A stretch of DNA of 50,479 bases from contig VGYC01000027.1 of NCBI GenBank assembly GCA_016873095.1, positions 1 through 50,479 on the forward strand. Reading direction: 5' to 3'. The notes below the pieces were generated by a model. The model did no database searches and was not told where the DNA came from. It saw only the letters and a list, made by a program, of their open reading frames with translations. The DNA is from Planctomycetota bacterium. Lineage in GTDB: Bacteria > Planctomycetota > Planctomycetia > Gemmatales > Gemmataceae. Positions 41,202-50,479 of this stretch are shown here, in pieces. The stretch's first letter is position 1; each line of letters opens with the position of its first letter. A program made the translations under genes and the position numbers.

Positions 41202-42908
41202 CTATCGCCCCTTGGGCATGGCCAGATTGGAGAATTGGCCGGGACTCATGCCGTGGAATGGGTCGCTCATGCGGCTGGCGGTCTCACGCGCGAGCGGCAA
41301 GGAAAAAAGGTTTCGGGTCAGATCTAGCGCTACGTTGGCTCGCTTCAGGAATAGCAAGGCGAAACAGGTGTCCGGAACGCCTGGGAAGAAGTCGCTCCAG
41401 CTGCCGTCGAGTTGCTGGTGAGCGAGGATGAACGGCGTTCCCCAGGCGTACCAGTCCTTGCCGCCAATCGTGCGGAGATCGTAAGCCACCGCGACACGTT
41501 CGACGGACCAGAGGAAATAGAGATCGCCGCGCGAGTTGGCGCCGAGGATCGTGCCGCCTGTCTGGATGTTATTCTGCTCCTTGAGAAGGTCCTGAATTTG
41601 CTTGAGGATAGTCGGTCGCTCCGCAAGGCCGGCCTGAGCGAGGCGTGTTTGCAAGTTCCGCATCTGGGCATTGGCCTGGGCCTTCTCGGCGACGGCCTTC
41701 TGCAGGCCCCGGCCGCCTATCCGCTGGCTCAAGAACAACAAACCTCGTTCAATGGCTTGGTCTCCCAGCCTGGCGGGCCTGGGCCTGTCCAGCTTACCCC
41801 CGGCGGCGCTTGGTCCTTCGCGCTGACCTTGCTGGATGCCGTTGCTCACGGCCAGTCCAAGCAAGCCGGCGCACGTCATCGAATCGGCGCGGAAGTTACC
41901 CGCCTCTGGAGTCCATCTGTACGCCCAACTGCCGTCTGGAGCTTGGCTGGCGCGAAAGCGGGCCTCCACCATGCTCAGCGATCGCGACACGGGAATTCCG
42001 TCGTTCTGGGCACGCCATAGCGCCAGGATCACGAACTGGGTGAGCGAGTTGTCCTCCCAGCCGGTTGGCTGAAAACGAAGCGCCTGTCCCGGGCGATATT
42101 GCAATGCGGGCAATGTCCTGACACTCTCCACCGGCCGGGGCACGAAGATCTTCGTCTTGGCCGCGTAGCGCACCGCCGACTTCAAGGCCTCAAGCAGCGC
42201 TTGCTCCTGCGCGGCGCTCAGAGTCGGACACTTGTAGCTCCAGCCGCCGAGAATTCCTTGACCGGCGATCAATTGCAAAGCGATGCGGCGAACCCATTTT
42301 CGGTCCTTGACATCGCCAACCATGTCCAGGAACAAGAGACACAAGGATCGCTCATAGGTGGCCGTCAACTGCGGCAAGCCGGCACGGACGGATTTGGCGA
42401 GCCGTACCACTGCCGCGTCTTTCTTGTCCACGCCGCACGACAGTAGCGTCAAGCCGGACAAGGCCCGCCCGCCAAGGCGGAAGGCGTCAGTTTTCTTGAG
42501 ATACGCCACGCCGCGTTCGATGGCCGCTGCCAGCCGCGCATTGGTCCGCGGATACTCATAGACCACGGGTTTGGCGACAGCCATCACCGCGGCGGGGGGC
42601 CCTGCTTTCGTGACTGCCGGCACGTCGCTCCCAAGAACCTCACCCTGAACGTGCACGAAAGCTAGCAGAACCAGAGCAATCAAGCGGCCGGCGGCGGAAA
42701 CCCTTGGCGTCGTTTGCAGAAACCTCCCGAGCCTGTCTGATCCCGGCTCCCTCCGCGACTTCTGGAAGAGGGGCCGGGAGGCAGGGTCATTTCCACCTCG
42801 CGGCTGCATCGTCGTTGCACTCAAAACATTTCCTCCCGTCGTCACCATCCTTTCTTCCGGAGCGAGTGGGGAGCCATCGCATCGCTGCTTCGTGGCGTGA
42901 TGATTCAT
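41202..42908 (-). CDS. Secreted prenyltransferase/squalene-cyclase-like repeat protein
   Basis: A 568-residue protein with alpha/alpha-barrel repeats of the terpene-cyclase/prenyltransferase kind: AIERGVAYLKK, GWEDNSLTQFVILALWRAQNDG, FRASQAPDGSWAYRW and DSMTCAGLLGLAVS, then a long charged helix (about 430-470) and a final QQLDGSWSDFFPGVPDTCFALLFLKRA repeat. The catalytic DxDD or DCTAE motifs of cyclases are not seen, so enzyme activity is doubtful. A hydrophobic segment (RLIALVLLAFVHVQGEVLGS) about 75-95 residues in suggests export. The start is uncertain: ATG 42908 has AGGTGG upstream, but ATGs at 42848 and 42809 are also possible. It is convergent with the beta-helix gene. Confidence 0.7.
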   Translation of the reverse strand: MNHHATKQRCDGSPLAPEERMVTTGGNVLSATTMQPRGGNDPASRPLFQKSRREPGSDRLGRFLQTTPRVSAAGRLIALVLLAFVHVQGEVLGSDVPAVTKAGPPAAVMAVAKPVVYEYPRTNARLAAAIERGVAYLKKTDAFRLGGRALSGLTLLSCGVDKKDAAVVRLAKSVRAGLPQLTATYERSLCLLFLDMVGDVKDRKWVRRIALQLIAGQGILGGWSYKCPTLSAAQEQALLEALKSAVRYAAKTKIFVPRPVESVRTLPALQYRPGQALRFQPTGWEDNSLTQFVILALWRAQNDGIPVSRSLSMVEARFRASQAPDGSWAYRWTPEAGNFRADSMTCAGLLGLAVSNGIQQGQREGPSAAGGKLDRPRPARLGDQAIERGLLFLSQRIGGRGLQKAVAEKAQANAQMRNLQTRLAQAGLAERPTILKQIQDLLKEQNNIQTGGTILGANSRGDLYFLWSVERVAVAYDLRTIGGKDWYAWGTPFILAHQQLDGSWSDFFPGVPDTCFALLFLKRANVALDLTRNLFSLPLARETASRMSDPFHGMSPGQFSNLAMPKGR

Positions 42909-43010
42909 GGCTTCCACCTGCGGACAGAATGGCGCGCGCTGCCCGCGCGCCGTGCTACCCAGATTTGCATAGTCTTGAACCCATGCCAAGGCCATCACTC
43001 CACTCACGCG

Positions 43011-44057
43011 TCACTTGACAGCTGTCGGCAACTGGTAGCCTTCCTTGTTGAGTCCGATTCGATAGAGGCTCTTGCCGGCGGTGATGTACAGCGTCTTGCT
43101 TTCCGGTCCTCGACCGAACCCGACATTGGTGGGTATCTCCGTCTTGATGTACGCCAGTTCCTTGCCTGCGGGGGAATAGACGCAGATCCCCGGTCGTGTT
43201 GCGTCGCGGACCGCCACGTACAGGTTGCCTTCGGCGTCGCAGACCAGGCCGTCGGGCCCGTCTTGCGGCGCGTAATCGACCAGGACCTTGCGGAACTTGG
43301 CGGTGCCGTCGCCGGCCAGGTCATAGGCGAGCAGGGCCATGCGGCCCTTGTGCACGGGCGCCTCCTTCGGCAAACGGCCGATGCCGGTGGTGCCGTTGTC
43401 GTTACTGACGACGTACAGCGATTTCTGATCCGGCGACACAGTGACGCCGTTCGGCTTGCCGGCGTCGGTGATGATGCGGTGGATGGAGCCGTCAGGGTCG
43501 ATGCGGTAGACGGCCTGCACCGGCTGATCGATCGGCTCGTGGCCCAGGTAACGTGGGTCGCTGAAATAGATGCGGCCCTTCTCGTCGATGGTGATGTCGT
43601 TGGGCGAATTGAAGGGCCGGCCTTCGAAGAGCCCGGCGATGATGTAGCTCTTGCCCGTCTTCATGTCGGTGCGGATGACGCGCCGGCCGCCGTAGTCGGC
43701 TCCCTCGGCCACGATCATGTTGCCGGCCGCATCAAACTTGATGCCGTTGGACATGCCGCTCGGCGAACGAAAAATGGTCGTCTTCCTGGTCTTCGGATTG
43801 AACTTCCAGATGTGTCCCGCCTCGATCACGCCTTTGTTGTCCCTGGAAGCGTGCGAGAAGGTGATGTCGCTGAAGTAGACCATGCCGTCCAGCGCCACAG
43901 CCACTCCTTCGGTGAGCACGACGCCGCCGTCGAAGACTTTTTCCAGCTTGGCGCCGGCTGGTACGATGCCGTTTTTCTCCTGCGACGTGACCGCCGCGTG
44001 CGAGAACAGGAGAGCGATCAGGATGCCCAACATGGTGAACACCGACTTCCAGTTCAT
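43011..44057 (-). CDS. SMP-30/gluconolactonase-like exported protein
   Basis: A 348-residue beta-propeller. The signal peptide (MNWKSVFTMLGILIALLFSHAAVTSQ) is followed by repeated six-bladed segments: LTEGVAVALDGMVYFSD, GMSNGIKFDAAGNMIVAEG, FNSPNDITIDEKGRIYFSDPRY, KPNGVTVSPDQKSLYVV, and DGPDGLVCDAEGNLYVA. The Glu, Asn and Asp residues in these phrases are the calcium ligands of SMP-30/lactonase family enzymes. Planctomycetes carry many paralogues, assumed to open sugar lactones. ATG 44057 is chosen over ATG 44075 because AAGGAG lies eight bases upstream. Confidence 0.87.
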   Translation of the reverse strand: MNWKSVFTMLGILIALLFSHAAVTSQEKNGIVPAGAKLEKVFDGGVVLTEGVAVALDGMVYFSDITFSHASRDNKGVIEAGHIWKFNPKTRKTTIFRSPSGMSNGIKFDAAGNMIVAEGADYGGRRVIRTDMKTGKSYIIAGLFEGRPFNSPNDITIDEKGRIYFSDPRYLGHEPIDQPVQAVYRIDPDGSIHRIITDAGKPNGVTVSPDQKSLYVVSNDNGTTGIGRLPKEAPVHKGRMALLAYDLAGDGTAKFRKVLVDYAPQDGPDGLVCDAEGNLYVAVRDATRPGICVYSPAGKELAYIKTEIPTNVGFGRGPESKTLYITAGKSLYRIGLNKEGYQLPTAVK

Positions 44058-44219
44058 GCGAAACGCTCCTTTCATGGCAGTTCGCTCGGATTCGCAGCCG
44101 GCGATGCAACCTGTCTGGTGTCGTTGCGCGCCGCGGTTTCCGCTATCTAAGGTAGTCTCTCATGCCGCGCACGCAAGGAGATTTTCGGAACCGCTCGACC
44201 GGCGAGTCCAGAAAGCAAG

Positions 44220-45262: not shown

Positions 45263-46819
45263 TCACTCCGCGCATAATAGCGGCTGCCGGCGATAGGGCG
45301 AGGGCGGCAACTCGGGCACGTCTTCCAGCTGCTTCCGGCACCAATCGCGTAACTCGCGCACCAAAGCGAAAAGGTCGAGTTGTGGATCTTCCTCGAGGGC
45401 GTCGAGTGTCCGCACTGCCACCTCGTAAACGACATCGTCAAATCGATCGAGAGTGTGCTGGCAAAGATCGTGCCGCGGACTCTTCGACTGCATCAGCTTG
45501 CTGAGAATACTCCACTTGGCCATCAGCGACTCGTACCAGCGCGGGAAATGTGGCCAGATGACGCGATCGAAGACGGCCTTAATCGACGCCACTCGCGGAT
45601 CGGCGAATTGATAGCGATAGCAGCCATCCGGTTCACGATAAGCAACGCCCTCGGACACGAGCGGTTCCAGCAGTGGCGTCCCCGGCGATAGTTGCAGGAA
45701 ATTCGTAATGGTATGGATGTTCAGATGCCCGATGTCATGCAGGAATTCGACTGATTCACGAACATTTTCCAGTGTCGTCCAGGGATTGAACATGATGAAG
45801 CCGACATGCGTGTAGACGTCCAGTTCCTTCAGCAACGCAAGGGTGCGCAACACCAGGTCGCGGGACTGGCCCTTCTTGAACGCCCGCCGCGTTGACTGGT
45901 CAACTGCTTCGATGCCAAAGAAGACCATTTGCAGTCCGGCGTCCTTGAGTGGGCGAAAGGTGTCGTGATCAATCCATTCGGCCCGACATTGCAGCGAAAA
46001 GCCGACATTGAGTCGGCGCCGCTTCAGTTCTGCGGCCAGATCGCGGGCGCGCGGCTGGCCAAGCTTGCGGTTGCCGATGAAATCGTCGTCGACGAAATTG
46101 ACCTGCTCGATGCCGTAATCGCTCACCAGCCGATCGATCTCGTCGGCGATGTTCTTCGAACTGCGAAATCGCCAGGGCCGATCGGGATCGAGATTGAAGC
46201 GATGGACGGCACAGAACGTGCACTTGCCCTGGCAGCCCCGACTGGTGGCCAGCGGCGGCATCAAGCCTTGCTCCAGCGTCAACGGCAACGTGTCGCGCAG
46301 CGGAAAGGGGAGGCTGTCGAGATCATCAGCGGGCACGGCCGGCGCATTCATGTGCAGGCGGCCTGCCTCCAGCTGGCACAGTCCGGCGATGGAAGTGTAA
46401 TCGCGGCCTGATTGCAGGCACGTTGCCAGCTCCAGAAGAGGCTTCTCGCCCTCGAAGCGCAGCACTGTATCCAGATGCGGGCACATGCGAAACACCCAGT
46501 CGGGAGCGAAGCTGGCCAGGTTGCCGCCCATCGTGAGATGGGCCTTGGGTAGCGCGTAGCGAAGCTTCTTGGCAAGGTGGATGGCGCTTTCCAGACCATC
46601 CTCACTCATCAGAGACATGCCAACCAGTTCCGGATCCGTGCCGGCAACGCGTTCGAGGACCTGGTCGTCGCTGAGCTTTTCGATCTCCGCGTCGACGACA
46701 TGGACCTCGTGACCGTGCCGGCGCAGCATCCCGCCGACATAGCCCAACCCCAGACATTCCTGGGTTCCTTCGTCGTAACCGGCAACTCGATAAACCGGTC
46801 GAATCAATGTGCAACGCAT
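45263..46819 (-). CDS. Cobalamin-binding radical SAM protein
   Basis: A 518-residue enzyme. Residues 1-140 are a B12-binding fold (GYVGGMLRRHGHEVHVVDAE, MGGNLASFAPDWVF), of the base-off type since the DxHxxG motif is absent. The 4Fe-4S binding motif is SRGCQGKCTFCAVHRF with Cys196, Cys200 and Cys203. The radical SAM barrel follows (VNFVDDDFIGN, FFGIEAVDQSTRRAFKKGQS), and a C-terminal extension of about 110 residues ends the protein. Class B radical SAM methylases add methyl to unactivated carbon or phosphorus, e.g. in RiPP and antibiotic pathways. ATG 46819 has AGGA eight bases upstream. A C-methyltransferase of the adjacent Cys-rich peptide is the most attractive guess; horizontal or vertical oxidative roles remain possible. 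Confidence 0.9.
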   Translation of the reverse strand: MRCTLIRPVYRVAGYDEGTQECLGLGYVGGMLRRHGHEVHVVDAEIEKLSDDQVLERVAGTDPELVGMSLMSEDGLESAIHLAKKLRYALPKAHLTMGGNLASFAPDWVFRMCPHLDTVLRFEGEKPLLELATCLQSGRDYTSIAGLCQLEAGRLHMNAPAVPADDLDSLPFPLRDTLPLTLEQGLMPPLATSRGCQGKCTFCAVHRFNLDPDRPWRFRSSKNIADEIDRLVSDYGIEQVNFVDDDFIGNRKLGQPRARDLAAELKRRRLNVGFSLQCRAEWIDHDTFRPLKDAGLQMVFFGIEAVDQSTRRAFKKGQSRDLVLRTLALLKELDVYTHVGFIMFNPWTTLENVRESVEFLHDIGHLNIHTITNFLQLSPGTPLLEPLVSEGVAYREPDGCYRYQFADPRVASIKAVFDRVIWPHFPRWYESLMAKWSILSKLMQSKSPRHDLCQHTLDRFDDVVYEVAVRTLDALEEDPQLDLFALVRELRDWCRKQLEDVPELPPSPYRRQPLLCAE

Positions 46820-46872
46820 GTCCAGTCCTTTGCGTAGAGCCGAGCAGGTTGGCGGTTTGCCCCGAGCGGCTT

Positions 46873-47118
46873 TCAGTTTTTCGCCTTTGGTACGGCCTCG
46901 TACTGGCGCTCGAAGACGGAGATGGCGGCCGGTTCGGTTTCGCGCACGTTTTCCATCTTGCGAATTTCCTGATACGTGGACTTCGGTGCCTTGTTCTGCG
47001 TCGGCGGCGACGTCCCTTTGTCGTCGCCACCGCAGCCGCGTGCAATTGCGATGATGATGCCGATCACAACGAGGAGCAGGCAACCGCAACCGGCGGCTCC
47101 CTCGGATTGCTGGCTCAT
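46873..47118 (-). CDS. 81-residue membrane peptide in the radical SAM cluster
   Basis: A small protein with one transmembrane helix (about residues 12-28) that opens with the Cys-X-Cys pair Cys11-Gly-Cys13 and ends in a charged cytosolic or periplasmic tail (EIRKMENVRETEPAAISVFERQYEAVP). ATG 47118 overlaps the stop of the SPASM protein as ATGA, so it is translationally coupled. It could be a membrane anchor, an export or immunity factor, or a second substrate since it carries a CxC pair. I do not recognise the family. Confidence 0.6.
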   Translation of the reverse strand: MSQQSEGAAGCGCLLLVVIGIIIAIARGCGGDDKGTSPPTQNKAPKSTYQEIRKMENVRETEPAAISVFERQYEAVPKAKN

Positions 47119-48455
47119 GGCGTCACGTCCTCAGGGACAACACATCCGTCCAGAGCGACCAACACGCGTTCCATGCTCGCGGGATGAACGAAGCGATACC
47201 CCTCCGCCAGCGCCTGCCGCACGCGCCCCATCACGGATTCGAATGCGACGCGGGACGGATGACAGTAGGACGCGCCCATCGGTCGGGCCATCATGAAGCT
47301 CGGGCAGCGGCGACACAGCGGTCTCGCCGAGCCGGTAGGACATTCGGCAAAAAACGTGTGCTCACCGGCTAGGCCGCGCCAGGTATCGATCATGTCGAGC
47401 AACGGTAGTGGCACATGCCCGTTGCCGGTCAAATTCGGCGGCTCCGTACCGATTTTCAGAAAGGAACAGCCCCACGCCTGGCCCGAAGCGGACACGACCG
47501 AGATCTGACAATCGCCCGAGCAAGCCTCCTCGAAGGCGAGATACTCGGCGGCCAGCGGCGTGAAGAAGCTCTCGTTCATCAGCTCGGCGAACTGCTCAGA
47601 GGTAAGCCGTAACTCGGCCAGCGTTGCATCGAGGCGGCGGTCGCTCGGGTAAATGATGGTTGCTACCGTGAAGGAATTGTCCGTGAGGTTGAAGAGGAAG
47701 TTGACCAACTCGAAGCGGTACTCAAAGTTCATGCGCGTCAATGCCGCAGTGGACACAATGGCGATGCCAAGCTCGCGACAGAGTTCGACGATGCGCACCA
47801 ATCGGGCGAATGAACCGGGGATGCCGGTGAAGGCGTCGTGCAGAGCGGCGTTGTGTCCAAAGAAGTCGGACTTGACGATGACGCGCCGGCCCAAGCGTTG
47901 TGCCAGCCGATCCCGGGTCGATGAATCGTCAGGGTCCAGTCCGCCACCGTTGACCAGCAAGCGCAGGGTCGTGTCCGGCGCCCGTTCGTGAAGATAGTCG
48001 AGCAGATCCCAGAGATGCGGATAAAGAAAGATGTCGCCGCCGGTGATGGAGATCTCGGCGCTTGCAGCGGCGAGGAGGCGATCGGCGGCTTGCCAGACCG
48101 CGGCACGGGTTGGCGTCGCTAGCGAATGCCTGGCCGGCCGCAACGTTTGGAAGCAATGCCGACAGGCGTACTCGCACAGGTAGTTGATCTCGAGGTTAGC
48201 TTCGCGGGCATCATTGTGGCGGCGAATGGCCCGCGCCGCATGGTAGACATCAACGTGAAACTGCCCGTTCGCCCAGGCCCGCTCGTCAGATTCTAGGTCG
48301 TTGACTGCAAGCTCTCCGGTCGCAGGTGCATCGGTTGTGAGGACGCCGTGATAATCGAGGCCCGGCTCGTACAGCAGCCAGCGCGCCGCGTCCTTGTCCG
48401 GCTGCCACATGACGCCCGGCTTGACTCGCTCCAAAATCGGTGACGGCAATGGCAC
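47115..48455 (-). CDS. Radical SAM/SPASM-like peptide maturase (second)
   Basis: A 446-residue enzyme. The radical SAM motif is NYLCEYACRHCF with Cys94, Cys98 and Cys101, followed by ISITGGDIFLYP (GGE-type motif, here GGD). The C-terminus has Cys312, 316, 330, 372, 381, 384 and 398, a SPASM/twitch-like set for extra 4Fe-4S clusters, typical of peptide-modifying radical SAM enzymes. The N-terminal 70 residues may hold a peptide-recognition domain. The start is GTG 48455, because AGGAG lies five bases before it; it follows the Cys-rich peptide gene by 16 bases. Likely forms thioether or C-C crosslinks in that peptide, which is inferred from context. Confidence 0.85.
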   Translation of the reverse strand: MPLPSPILERVKPGVMWQPDKDAARWLLYEPGLDYHGVLTTDAPATGELAVNDLESDERAWANGQFHVDVYHAARAIRRHNDAREANLEINYLCEYACRHCFQTLRPARHSLATPTRAAVWQAADRLLAAASAEISITGGDIFLYPHLWDLLDYLHERAPDTTLRLLVNGGGLDPDDSSTRDRLAQRLGRRVIVKSDFFGHNAALHDAFTGIPGSFARLVRIVELCRELGIAIVSTAALTRMNFEYRFELVNFLFNLTDNSFTVATIIYPSDRRLDATLAELRLTSEQFAELMNESFFTPLAAEYLAFEEACSGDCQISVVSASGQAWGCSFLKIGTEPPNLTGNGHVPLPLLDMIDTWRGLAGEHTFFAECPTGSARPLCRRCPSFMMARPMGASYCHPSRVAFESVMGRVRQALAEGYRFVHPASMERVLVALDGCVVPEDVTP

Positions 48456-48460
48456 GCATG

Positions 48461-48465
48461 CTCCT
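48461..48465 (-). promoter_or_regulatory. AGGAG ribosome binding site for the GTG-start SPASM gene
   Basis: On the minus strand AGGAG ends five bases before GTG 48455. It lies in the 16-base gap after the Cys-rich peptide stop and decides the start of the downstream gene against the longer open frame. Confidence 0.6.
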
Positions 48466-48471
48466 AATGTA

Positions 48472-48858
48472 TCAATGAGCTCGCACCGGCACACAGCGGC
48501 AAACGCGGCCGCCGCCGCCGCCCGAGGAATGCCTGTTGCACGAGCAAACCGACTGGCAGGTGCAGGTCCGCAGCGGATCGCACGAACACACCATCACCGT
48601 GTCGCATGAGCAGGCGCGGACGGTCTGGCAGGTGCAGCGACTGACGGTATCGCAACGGCAGCGCGAGCCGCCGGAGAGCACCGTGTTGCAGGTACACACC
48701 GTATCGCAACGGCAGACGATCTCGACGTCGTCGCGCTGCTGCGTCTCCTTCTCGTCAATGTGAATTTCGAGGTCTGGGCGCACGAAGGCAAACACCCGCG
48801 GCGCTTTGCCCTGGCTGTCGTTCTTCTTGGGCCGAAAATCGTTGTCATCTTGTGGCAT
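48472..48858 (-). CDS. Cys-rich CxC-repeat peptide, candidate RiPP precursor
   Basis: A 128-residue peptide. Residues 1-48 are a charged leader (MPQDDNDF..., with VFAFVRPDLEIHIDEKE as a possible recognition segment), with no signal peptide. Residues 49-122 hold 18 Cys in nine Cys-X-Cys pairs, at 49, 55, 67, 75, 83, 91, 99, 105 and 120. Pairs 67 to 99 are exactly eight residues apart: CRCDTVSR, CTCQTVRA, CSCDTVMV, CSCDPLRT; the first two are CRCDTV and CTCNTV. Consensus CxC(D/N/Q)TVxx. A Gly-rich gap (GGGGG) precedes the last pair. ATG 48858 overlaps the upstream radical SAM stop by 14 bases. Between two peptide-type radical SAM enzymes it is best read as their substrate. I know no named family with this repeat. 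Confidence 0.78.
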   Translation of the reverse strand: MPQDDNDFRPKKNDSQGKAPRVFAFVRPDLEIHIDEKETQQRDDVEIVCRCDTVCTCNTVLSGGSRCRCDTVSRCTCQTVRACSCDTVMVCSCDPLRTCTCQSVCSCNRHSSGGGGGRVCRCVPVRAH

Positions 48859-50332
48859 GGAGCAATCCAATCTGGACGAGGGGCTGCGGAGCGTGCGGCT
48901 CCTGGATCGGAACCGGCTCGATAGGCTCCGCAGGACCCAAGGGGATGAGCGCTGAATCGCTCATGGCCTTGATCTGCATCATCACGGTACTGTTCTGCTC
49001 CAACCGGCGGACGAGCTGGTCACGGGTCAGCTCCTGATTGATAAGGCAGCGGGCCGCCTTGAGCCGATCCCGAGGCCGGTCGTCCGAGGTCATGTTCTTG
49101 GCGATGCAATCGCCGGCGCAGTGCCATTTACAAAAACAGTCCTGGCACTCGGGCCGCTCGCGAACGGTGTGGCCTGCCAGTGTCTGCAACTTGGCTTGGT
49201 CCACCGTGAATACCCCCGTACTGGCGTCACGCCCGCCATAAAAAAACTTGTCCGCCAGGTGATCATCCGGATGGCAGACTTCGAAGCACGACGTCAGGAG
49301 TCCTTCCGGAGTGACATTGAAGCTGCCCTCGGGAACGCCGCAGAACGTGTCGGTTACCGTATCGAGCCGAGCTCCCGAGTAGTACAACTCGAGGCCGTAT
49401 TGCCGGGCGACTCTTTCCGCCTCGCGATAATTCTCGATGAAGGCCCAGGCTTGTGGGGCGGCCAGGCCCTTGGCATGTGCCCGCCCGTGGCTGAAGAGCG
49501 GCTCCAGGTGAATCGTGCTCGGCGAATAGCGTTTGAGGAGGTAGGCGACAATGTCGGCCAAGCGCAGCACCGTCTCCTCGGTGACCGTGAGTCGGACGCC
49601 GTAGCGAGCTGCATGGCTATCGAGGTGCCGCAGCGTGGCCTCGACGGTTTCGGCGGAACCGGCGCCGGTCATCGTGGGCCGTTGTCGATCCTGCGCCCAA
49701 GCCGGACCATCATAAGAGATCGAAAAATCGTGAATATGCCTCGCCACCCAATCTACCTTCCACGATGGCAAGACGCCGTTGGTCGCCAGGTTGAGAGCGA
49801 CTTTCAAGCCGTGTCGCTTGGCCAGCTCTTCGGCCCGCAAGGCACTCGCAGTGAGCGTGTCCCAGGCGAGAGTCGGCTCGCCGCCACCATGGTAGGAGAC
49901 GCGGAACTCTTGCTGGCCCAGTTCCAGTGTATTGCGCACCACCAGTTCCACGGCAGCCAGCGCGGTAGCTCTGTCCAGCGAGCCCTTGTAGTCGCCGGCT
50001 GACGCGTAACAATAGCTGCAGCGCAGATTGCAGGCGTTTGTCAAGAACACGGTCACTTCGGTCGGCTTCCAGTCACCACGCCTCTGAAAATTTGGCGGCT
50101 GATCTTCGGGCCCATTGACGGCTCCCGATTCAATCAGGAGTTGCAGGGCGTCCATGTTGGCGCCGGTGGCGCCGGGAAGCGTGCCGTCGCGCAATGACGC
50201 CACCATGTCCACCATGTCCTGGTTGGCCAGCACCACAATTTGCGTGAGCGGCGAGTACAGTATGTACGTGTCTTGCTGGTACGGGATGGCGAAAAACTCG
50301 GTGCTCAGCCGGTAGGCTGTGTAGTGTTTCAT
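48845..50332 (-). CDS. Radical SAM/SPASM peptide maturase (first)
   Basis: A 495-residue enzyme. Residues 1-85 form a domain that resembles the peptide-binding N-termini of maturases (HYTAYRLSTEFFAIPY ... VVLANQDMVDMV). The radical SAM motif is TNACNLRCSYCYASAG with Cys101, Cys105, Cys108; then YHGGGEPTLAW. The SPASM domain has Cys331, 349, 353, 396, 399, 401, 405, 409 and 429, enough for two auxiliary 4Fe-4S clusters. The C-terminal tail is Pro-rich and its last codons overlap the precursor start. ATG 50332 is chosen although its ribosome binding site is weak; GTG 50344 is an alternative. It is the first gene of the run. Predicted to modify the CxC peptide. Confidence 0.9.
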   Translation of the reverse strand: MKHYTAYRLSTEFFAIPYQQDTYILYSPLTQIVVLANQDMVDMVASLRDGTLPGATGANMDALQLLIESGAVNGPEDQPPNFQRRGDWKPTEVTVFLTNACNLRCSYCYASAGDYKGSLDRATALAAVELVVRNTLELGQQEFRVSYHGGGEPTLAWDTLTASALRAEELAKRHGLKVALNLATNGVLPSWKVDWVARHIHDFSISYDGPAWAQDRQRPTMTGAGSAETVEATLRHLDSHAARYGVRLTVTEETVLRLADIVAYLLKRYSPSTIHLEPLFSHGRAHAKGLAAPQAWAFIENYREAERVARQYGLELYYSGARLDTVTDTFCGVPEGSFNVTPEGLLTSCFEVCHPDDHLADKFFYGGRDASTGVFTVDQAKLQTLAGHTVRERPECQDCFCKWHCAGDCIAKNMTSDDRPRDRLKAARCLINQELTRDQLVRRLEQNSTVMMQIKAMSDSALIPLGPAEPIEPVPIQEPHAPQPLVQIGLLHATR

Positions 50333-50412
50333 CCCAACTGGCACATCGGCTAAGGTAGGCGATGGTTCTCTCCACGGGTAGGAAAAACCAAAACCCTCAG
50401 AAGGAGAGAAGC

Positions 50413-50479
50413 ATGAACCAGGACCGGCGTCGGAAGTGGAGCTCGGCGGACAAGCTGCGGATCGTGCTGGCGGGGATGC
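50413..50479 (+). mobile_element. Transposase start, cut by the window end
   Basis: The frame from ATG 50413 has AAGGAG eight bases upstream and reads MNQDRRRKWSSADKLRIVLAGM before the window ends. RRKWSxxxKLRIVL is the helix-turn-helix start of IS3-type OrfA transposases. It is divergent from the radical SAM/SPASM gene, with 81 bases between. An insertion sequence therefore borders the putative RiPP cluster; its terminal inverted repeat would lie at about 50345-50400 but cannot be proven from one end. Confidence 0.75.

Follow-up and report, generated by a model that had tools for sequence, protein, structure and literature searches.

A conserved CxC-repeat peptide and its radical SAM enzymes, a RiPP-type family found in four bacterial phyla

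Why would a planctomycete encode three radical S-adenosylmethionine (SAM) enzymes around a 128-residue peptide built from CxC repeats? The genes lie near one end of a 50,479-nucleotide stretch of DNA from a Planctomycetota bacterium. This stretch, the window, is the entire contig VGYC01000027.1 of an 8.36-Mb genome that is in 548 contigs and 95.5% complete. The original prediction, made from the letters of the window, read the genes as a candidate system for a ribosomally synthesized and post-translationally modified peptide (RiPP) that fits no nameable family. We found that they belong to a conserved RiPP-type family that is real and lacks a name in Pfam and NCBIfam. We call this peptide family, with its radical SAM enzymes, family I; it is heavily Cys-repeated and reaches across four phyla.

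The peptide and its operon

The precursor peptide (P0002, 48472-48858, minus strand) consists of an N-terminal leader, repeats of the type C[ST]C[DEN]xV, a Gly run and the tail RVCRCVPVRAH. All 18 of its cysteines fall within CxC pairs. When the peptide core was shuffled 20,000 times, nine CxC motifs arose in 30 of the shuffled versions and complete pairing of the 18 cysteines in none, so the repeat is not a product of chance. The reading frame is also under coding constraint. Compared with the peptide of a second planctomycete, a groundwater Planctomycetota metagenome-assembled genome (MAG), codon positions 1, 2 and 3 mismatch at 31, 20 and 43%; because third positions mismatch most, we conclude that the peptide is coding. 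Third positions are likewise the most divergent in all six genes of the operon, a pattern expected where selection maintains the proteins.

Homologous peptides share a family leader (LPKPQIEIIVDG...), which in most of them takes the form (Y/F)NDR...LPKPQIEIIVDGNSxFKPGMK and has the planctomycete counterpart VRPDLEIHIDEKE. In the core repeat, C-[ST]-C-[DEN]-x-V, the Asp/Glu/Asn and Val positions are conserved besides Cys, and, over 183 motifs, six residues is the commonest distance between the starts of successive CxC motifs (72 of the spacings). The repeats are followed by a spacer or Gly-rich stretch and then by an ending of CxCVPV-H, -Y or -RAH, whose C-x-C-V-P-V is invariant in 18 of 18 aligned peptides. 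Searches of the window peptide and its family I relatives against Pfam and NCBIfam gave zero model matches. A RiPP system is expected to comprise a short precursor, with a leader that is conserved and a repeat core that varies, encoded beside modifying enzymes, and all of these features are present (18 peptides aligned; gene order in 25 genomes).

All genes of the operon are on the minus strand. Transcription would begin with rSAM1, a radical SAM/SPASM peptide maturase (P0001, 48845-50332, 495 aa), and pass through the peptide to rSAM2, a second radical SAM protein (P0003, 47115-48455, 446 aa, GTG start). It would continue through a small membrane protein with a GCGC motif and a hydrophobic segment (P0005, 46873-47118, 81 aa; weak match to NF058595) and a cobalamin (B12)-binding radical SAM enzyme, B12-rSAM (P0004, 45263-46819, 518 aa). 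The last member is a TPR protein (P0006, 44220-45257; Pfam TPR) with an N-terminal signal-like segment and C-terminal hydrophobic segments. Successive junctions are a 14-nt overlap, a 16-nt gap, a 4-nt overlap, a 53-nt gap and a 5-nt gap, which suggests a single operon. The original prediction named the first five genes as overlapping or nearly touching on one strand; these are present and intact, with correct coordinates and operon-like spacing. It overlooked the adjoining TPR gene, which is intact as well.

The gene set in other bacteria

How widely does this gene set occur? In the second planctomycete (G390), the locus on JACPRC010000147.1 (L047) matches the window operon gene for gene, with all six in identical order, which is the synteny that the original prediction had proposed looking for. 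Identities between the two copies are 68% for rSAM1, 65% for the peptide, 59% for rSAM2, 37% for the membrane peptide, 68% for B12-rSAM and ~39% for the TPR protein. Among 392 genomes of the phylum, the rSAM1 profile scored highly solely in these two (2/392), and rSAM2 had one close relative, that of G390 (61% identity in the search match). A single-protein scan of genome contigs with rSAM2 returned no match, and plasmids held no rSAM2 relative. rSAM2 was seen only in the two planctomycete copies.

Outside the phylum, an alignment scan of 84,980 genomes with B12-rSAM yielded 43 loci, many with a CxC peptide just upstream. The CxC-peptide loci come from a Spirochaetaceae MAG (L050), Clostridiales MAGs (L054, L057, L059), a Bacillota MAG (L063) and Coriobacteriia (L056, L058, L060-L062, L064-L068, L072, L087, L089). 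In the Coriobacteriia class, the rSAM1 profile picked out family I enzymes (E below 1e-150) in 8 genomes of the 246 examined, which added five loci. It found them in 1 of 371 genomes of the Clostridiales genome's class and 1 of 198 of the spirochaete's class, both being genomes already known. In total, family I peptides are present in 25 genomes from four phyla. The hosts are patchy across these phyla, and many come from gut and rumen samples.

Every one of the 25 genomes encodes rSAM1, and wherever peptide and enzyme share a contig they are adjacent. In the spirochaete, peptide and rSAM1 are on different contigs, each gene at a contig end, a separation consistent with an assembly break. The RiPP reading would have failed if the peptides at homologous loci were unrelated, if the enzymes had conserved non-peptide partners, or if orthologous enzymes lacked a CxC peptide nearby. 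We examined each possibility. The peptides are homologous, and rSAM1 keeps company with a CxC peptide throughout; the data thus support the RiPP-system reading.

Outside planctomycetes the operon usually runs RRE, rSAM1, CxC peptide, TPR, B12-rSAM and a U32/UbiU-like gene, where RRE denotes a RiPP recognition element. The U32-like protein matches the UbiU model weakly; the U32/UbiU group includes O2-independent hydroxylases.

More distant enzymes occur in other surroundings. In 99 relatives, rSAM1 gave weak matches, the best at 30% identity, and the neighbourhood of that best match (L003) showed no CxC peptide. Planctomycete relatives of rSAM1 at E 1e-39 to 1e-80 (G134, G455, G280, G412, G417) have no matching CxC peptide; G455 and G280 have other Cys-rich open reading frames (ORFs). 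Small Cys-rich ORFs near planctomycete rSAM1-related enzymes include L102 10536-10859 (minus strand, CPACPCQCDCQC) and L101 8008-8361 (plus strand, CPGNCGCNPVCGC), which are possibly further precursor types. A planctomycete cluster with three tandem rSAM1-related genes (L100, G134:C448:1-10910) was also seen, and a CxC peptide was not found in it. We set aside the B12-rSAM relatives L051-L053 and L055 and the Paenibacillus-type L069-L086 (except the member L072); the sequence examined at these loci contains no CxC peptide, and they probably represent other families.

The radical SAM enzymes and the systems they resemble

The three enzymes all contain the CxxxCxxC motif and match Pfam Radical_SAM (rSAM2 at 38 bits). 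rSAM1 also has the full seven-Cys SPASM pattern (C331-x12-G344-x4-C349; C396-x2-C399-x5-C405-x3-C409; C429), and both CxxxCxxC and the seven SPASM positions are invariant across 17 homologues, which places it among SPASM proteins. Its nearest NCBIfam models are the PapB, nif11 and SCIFF maturases, each matched far below cutoff. The top model, the PapB ranthipeptide maturase NF047865, gives 118.9 bits against a cutoff of 340 (97.9-111.2 bits in relatives), and the SCIFF maturase TIGR03974 gives 93.5 bits against 425, with no SCIFF precursor match. A sequence-profile search placed Protein Data Bank (PDB) entry 5wgg, which we take to be the SCIFF maturase CteB, first at E 3e-35. Foldseek with the rSAM1 model returned 5why and 5wgg as top matches; an RRE-like segment at the N terminus is modelled at low to middling confidence. 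By profile and by fold, rSAM1 is closest to the thioether-forming maturases PapB and SCIFF.

The other two enzymes are also distant from known families. B12-rSAM matches Pfam B12-binding and Radical_SAM, both above cutoff, as the original prediction had it, and its domain order (B12-binding, then radical SAM) is that of known C-methyltransferases. It belongs to the B12-dependent class and falls below cutoff for every NCBIfam model, including the RiPP C-methyltransferase TIGR03975 (74.6 bits; cutoff 281.85); its best PDB match is OxsB. We therefore regard it as a candidate C-methyltransferase. rSAM2 is weakly HxsC/AlbA/GeoRSP-like. It had been called radical SAM/SPASM-like; the radical SAM part stands, and the SPASM part is only approximate, a partial Cys pattern seen by eye. 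All matches of these enzymes to known NCBIfam maturase models are thus far below cutoff.

Which characterised systems come closest? The CxC system resembles CteB/PapB-type maturation in that a SPASM enzyme with two auxiliary-cluster motifs is encoded beside a short Cys-repeat peptide. However, the curated cutoffs place it outside those families: its scores are about one third of the cutoffs or less, its peptide is unmatched by the SCIFF and PapA models, and it has additional B12-rSAM, TPR and Tat-RRE genes, the last encoding an RRE with a twin-arginine translocation (Tat) signal. In the HxsB/HxsC system, too, a repeat peptide comes with two paired radical SAM enzymes, and HxsC is the best model for rSAM2. 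Yet rSAM2 scores 48.5 bits against the HxsC cutoff of 267.9, and the repeat is CxC, not HxS. Bufferins, oxazolins and DAG-RiPPs are also exported, Cys-rich modified peptides with their own signal peptide, some of them lipoproteins, and bufferins chelate copper. Unlike family I, they are made by MNIO rather than radical SAM enzymes and use Sec/lipoprotein signals, with no mention of Tat in the passages that we searched (PMC12452194, PMC12636315).

Proposed recognition and export, and alternative readings

How might the peptide be recognised, and how might it leave the cytoplasm? In relatives, the first gene of the operon encodes a protein with a PqqD-like domain and, in 20 of 21 cases, a twin-arginine motif (L057 lacks it). 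The L054 protein scores 23.6 bits with Pfam PqqD (cutoff 23.4) and 17.4 with the TAT_signal model TIGR01409 (cutoff 16.7). In an AlphaFold model of the first-gene protein, residues 41-120 are well above a predicted local distance difference test (pLDDT) score of 90 and follow a strand-strand-strand-helix-helix-helix order. The Foldseek list for the model is made up mostly of RREs (the PbtF RRE, TbiB1, heterocyclase RREs, MccB, CteB), and a further structural comparison also lists PqqD. Since some unrelated winged-helix proteins score equally, the fold alone is not decisive. Taken with the PqqD match, it identifies an RRE gene in relatives, the check that the original prediction had called for. 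None occurs as a separate gene in the window, and none was seen in the stretch examined of L063. In the second planctomycete, a 145-aa gene overlapping the rSAM1 start (L047:2922-3356) is a candidate RRE on position, size and an RRSFL motif only.

Additional genes tie the system to Tat. In L054 and L059, genes for TatA, TatC and a further TatC-like protein lie ahead of the RRE gene, and the spirochaete has TatA and TatC near rSAM1. A second branch of rSAM1 (E ~1e-95), which we call family II, occurs in 5 of these 246 Coriobacteriia-class genomes. In four of them (L133, L135, L136, L137), the precursor encoded upstream of rSAM1 combines a signal of the Tat type with a lipobox-like Cys, an acidic spacer, a (G/S)HYWYP tail and CxC repeats, of which L135 and L136 have many and L133 and L137 three; several tandem radical SAM genes follow it. 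No precursor was found in L134. Thus, CxC-peptide systems show two Tat arrangements, with the signal on the RRE in family I and on the precursor in family II, a link that the original prediction did not contain. Proteins above the TIGR01409 cutoff come from relatives only (the L054 Tat-RRE and the L135 precursor, at 20.0 against 16.7); a twin-arginine signal was not seen in the window's own operon proteins.

We consider it likely that these genes make a RiPP-type product through leader and RRE recognition, crosslinking by rSAM1, further modification and Tat-linked export, with a role at the surface. The gene set, homology, synteny, motifs and RRE fold, and the Tat signals in relatives, are observed, whereas we infer each reaction, the export of the peptide and its function. 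The precursor would be recognised through its leader by the RRE. With the C[ST]C[DEN]xV repeats as its substrate, rSAM1 would then work iteratively and most likely join Cys by a thioether to a nearby Asp/Glu/Asn or Val. By analogy, PapB joins Cys to Asp/Glu across 0-6 intervening residues (PMC9413430), so the C-x-C-[DE] spacing is feasible for a crosslink, although the analogy does not show the bond. B12-rSAM would probably add C-methyl groups, and rSAM2 in planctomycetes, or the U32/UbiU-like protein elsewhere, may make one more modification. After these cytoplasmic steps the product would exit by a Tat-linked route. Working together with the TPR protein at the surface of the cell, it could plausibly serve as a metal- or redox-binding peptide.

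A narrower proposal, which we put forward only tentatively, is a RiPP class exported by Tat. The Tat-signal RRE would carry the folded, crosslinked peptide as a hitchhiker bound through its leader, with dedicated TatA/TatC in some genomes, and the sister family would use a precursor-borne Tat signal and a lipoprotein anchor. In the open-access literature that we searched, we found no account of a radical SAM RiPP linked to Tat. The family supplies genetic evidence that connects the maturation of a peptide with Tat export. It would extend both RiPP chemistry and RiPP export routes, and its repeats offer a substrate for testing iterative radical crosslinking and C-methylation.

Several points weigh against the crosslinked, exported RiPP. 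No Tat-RRE gene lies in the window, and an insertion sequence (IS) may have disabled expression of this copy. Because rSAM1 is far below the cutoff of its nearest maturase models, its bond type cannot be read off from them. The Foldseek E-values of the RRE model are weak (best 0.018), although the hit list is consistent, and the RRE profile does not recognise the upstream gene of G390. Finally, the CxC repeats alone, unmodified, could bind metal.

Could the window operon be a decaying remnant whose promoter and RRE gene were removed by the IS? This concerns the window copy only, is compatible with the RiPP reading and seems to us possible, if on balance doubtful. The left end of the IS (50320-50479, plus strand) is what we take to be an IS3-like element (transposase start MNQDRRRKWSSADKLRIVLAGM), and six further copies in the genome are 95-100% identical, which indicates a recent arrival. 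From those six other ends, the boundary lies at ~50320, so that the annotated rSAM1 ATG (50330-50332) and its first four codons are inside the IS. rSAM1 thus takes its annotated start codon from the IS and is severed from its former upstream sequence. The window copy may thus have been recently truncated at its 5' end. No Tat-RRE was found elsewhere in the window genome, where the sole PqqD-like match is in a pqq operon. On the other hand, no ORF of the operon is broken, and in an assembly of this fragmentation and completeness the RRE gene may fall in a gap. The genome contains what reads as an ordinary pqqBCDE-like operon (L147, G000:C77).

A metallothionein-like peptide that binds metal without crosslinks, with radical enzymes that modify it little or act elsewhere, is unlikely. 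CxC is the classic metallothionein motif, the complete pairing of cysteines suits such a role, and Tat exports folded, cofactor-loaded proteins. But although metallothioneins share dense CxC motifs with family I, the CxC peptide has no Pfam metallothionein match and is constantly accompanied by a SPASM maturase, to which relatives add an RRE. Its conserved leader, its invariant CxCVPV tail and the conservation of repeat positions other than Cys also argue against this reading.

In quinohemoprotein amine dehydrogenase, the gamma subunit carries thioether crosslinks introduced by QhpD. We think it improbable that the modified peptide similarly forms a structural part of some exported enzyme. QhpD, of the QhpD/QhpC maturation system, is a radical SAM/SPASM enzyme with a peptide substrate, and its product functions outside the cytoplasm; rSAM1 matches the QhpD model (80.5 bits; cutoff 453), and the product of relatives appears export-linked. 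However, the operons have no conserved dehydrogenase and no other large exported partner, the repeats are many and tandem, and the link is to Tat rather than to a Qhp transporter. A ranthipeptide or sactipeptide antimicrobial is equally hard to credit: rSAM1 is related to CteB, PapB, SkfB and other maturases, but among the conserved genes we recognised none for an ABC exporter, a leader peptidase or immunity, and a Tat link and long Cys-dense peptides would be atypical.

Beyond the 3' end of the operon, also on the minus strand, lie a 601-aa ORF without a Pfam match (41202-43007) and a gene for an SMP-30/gluconolactonase-like protein (43011-44075).

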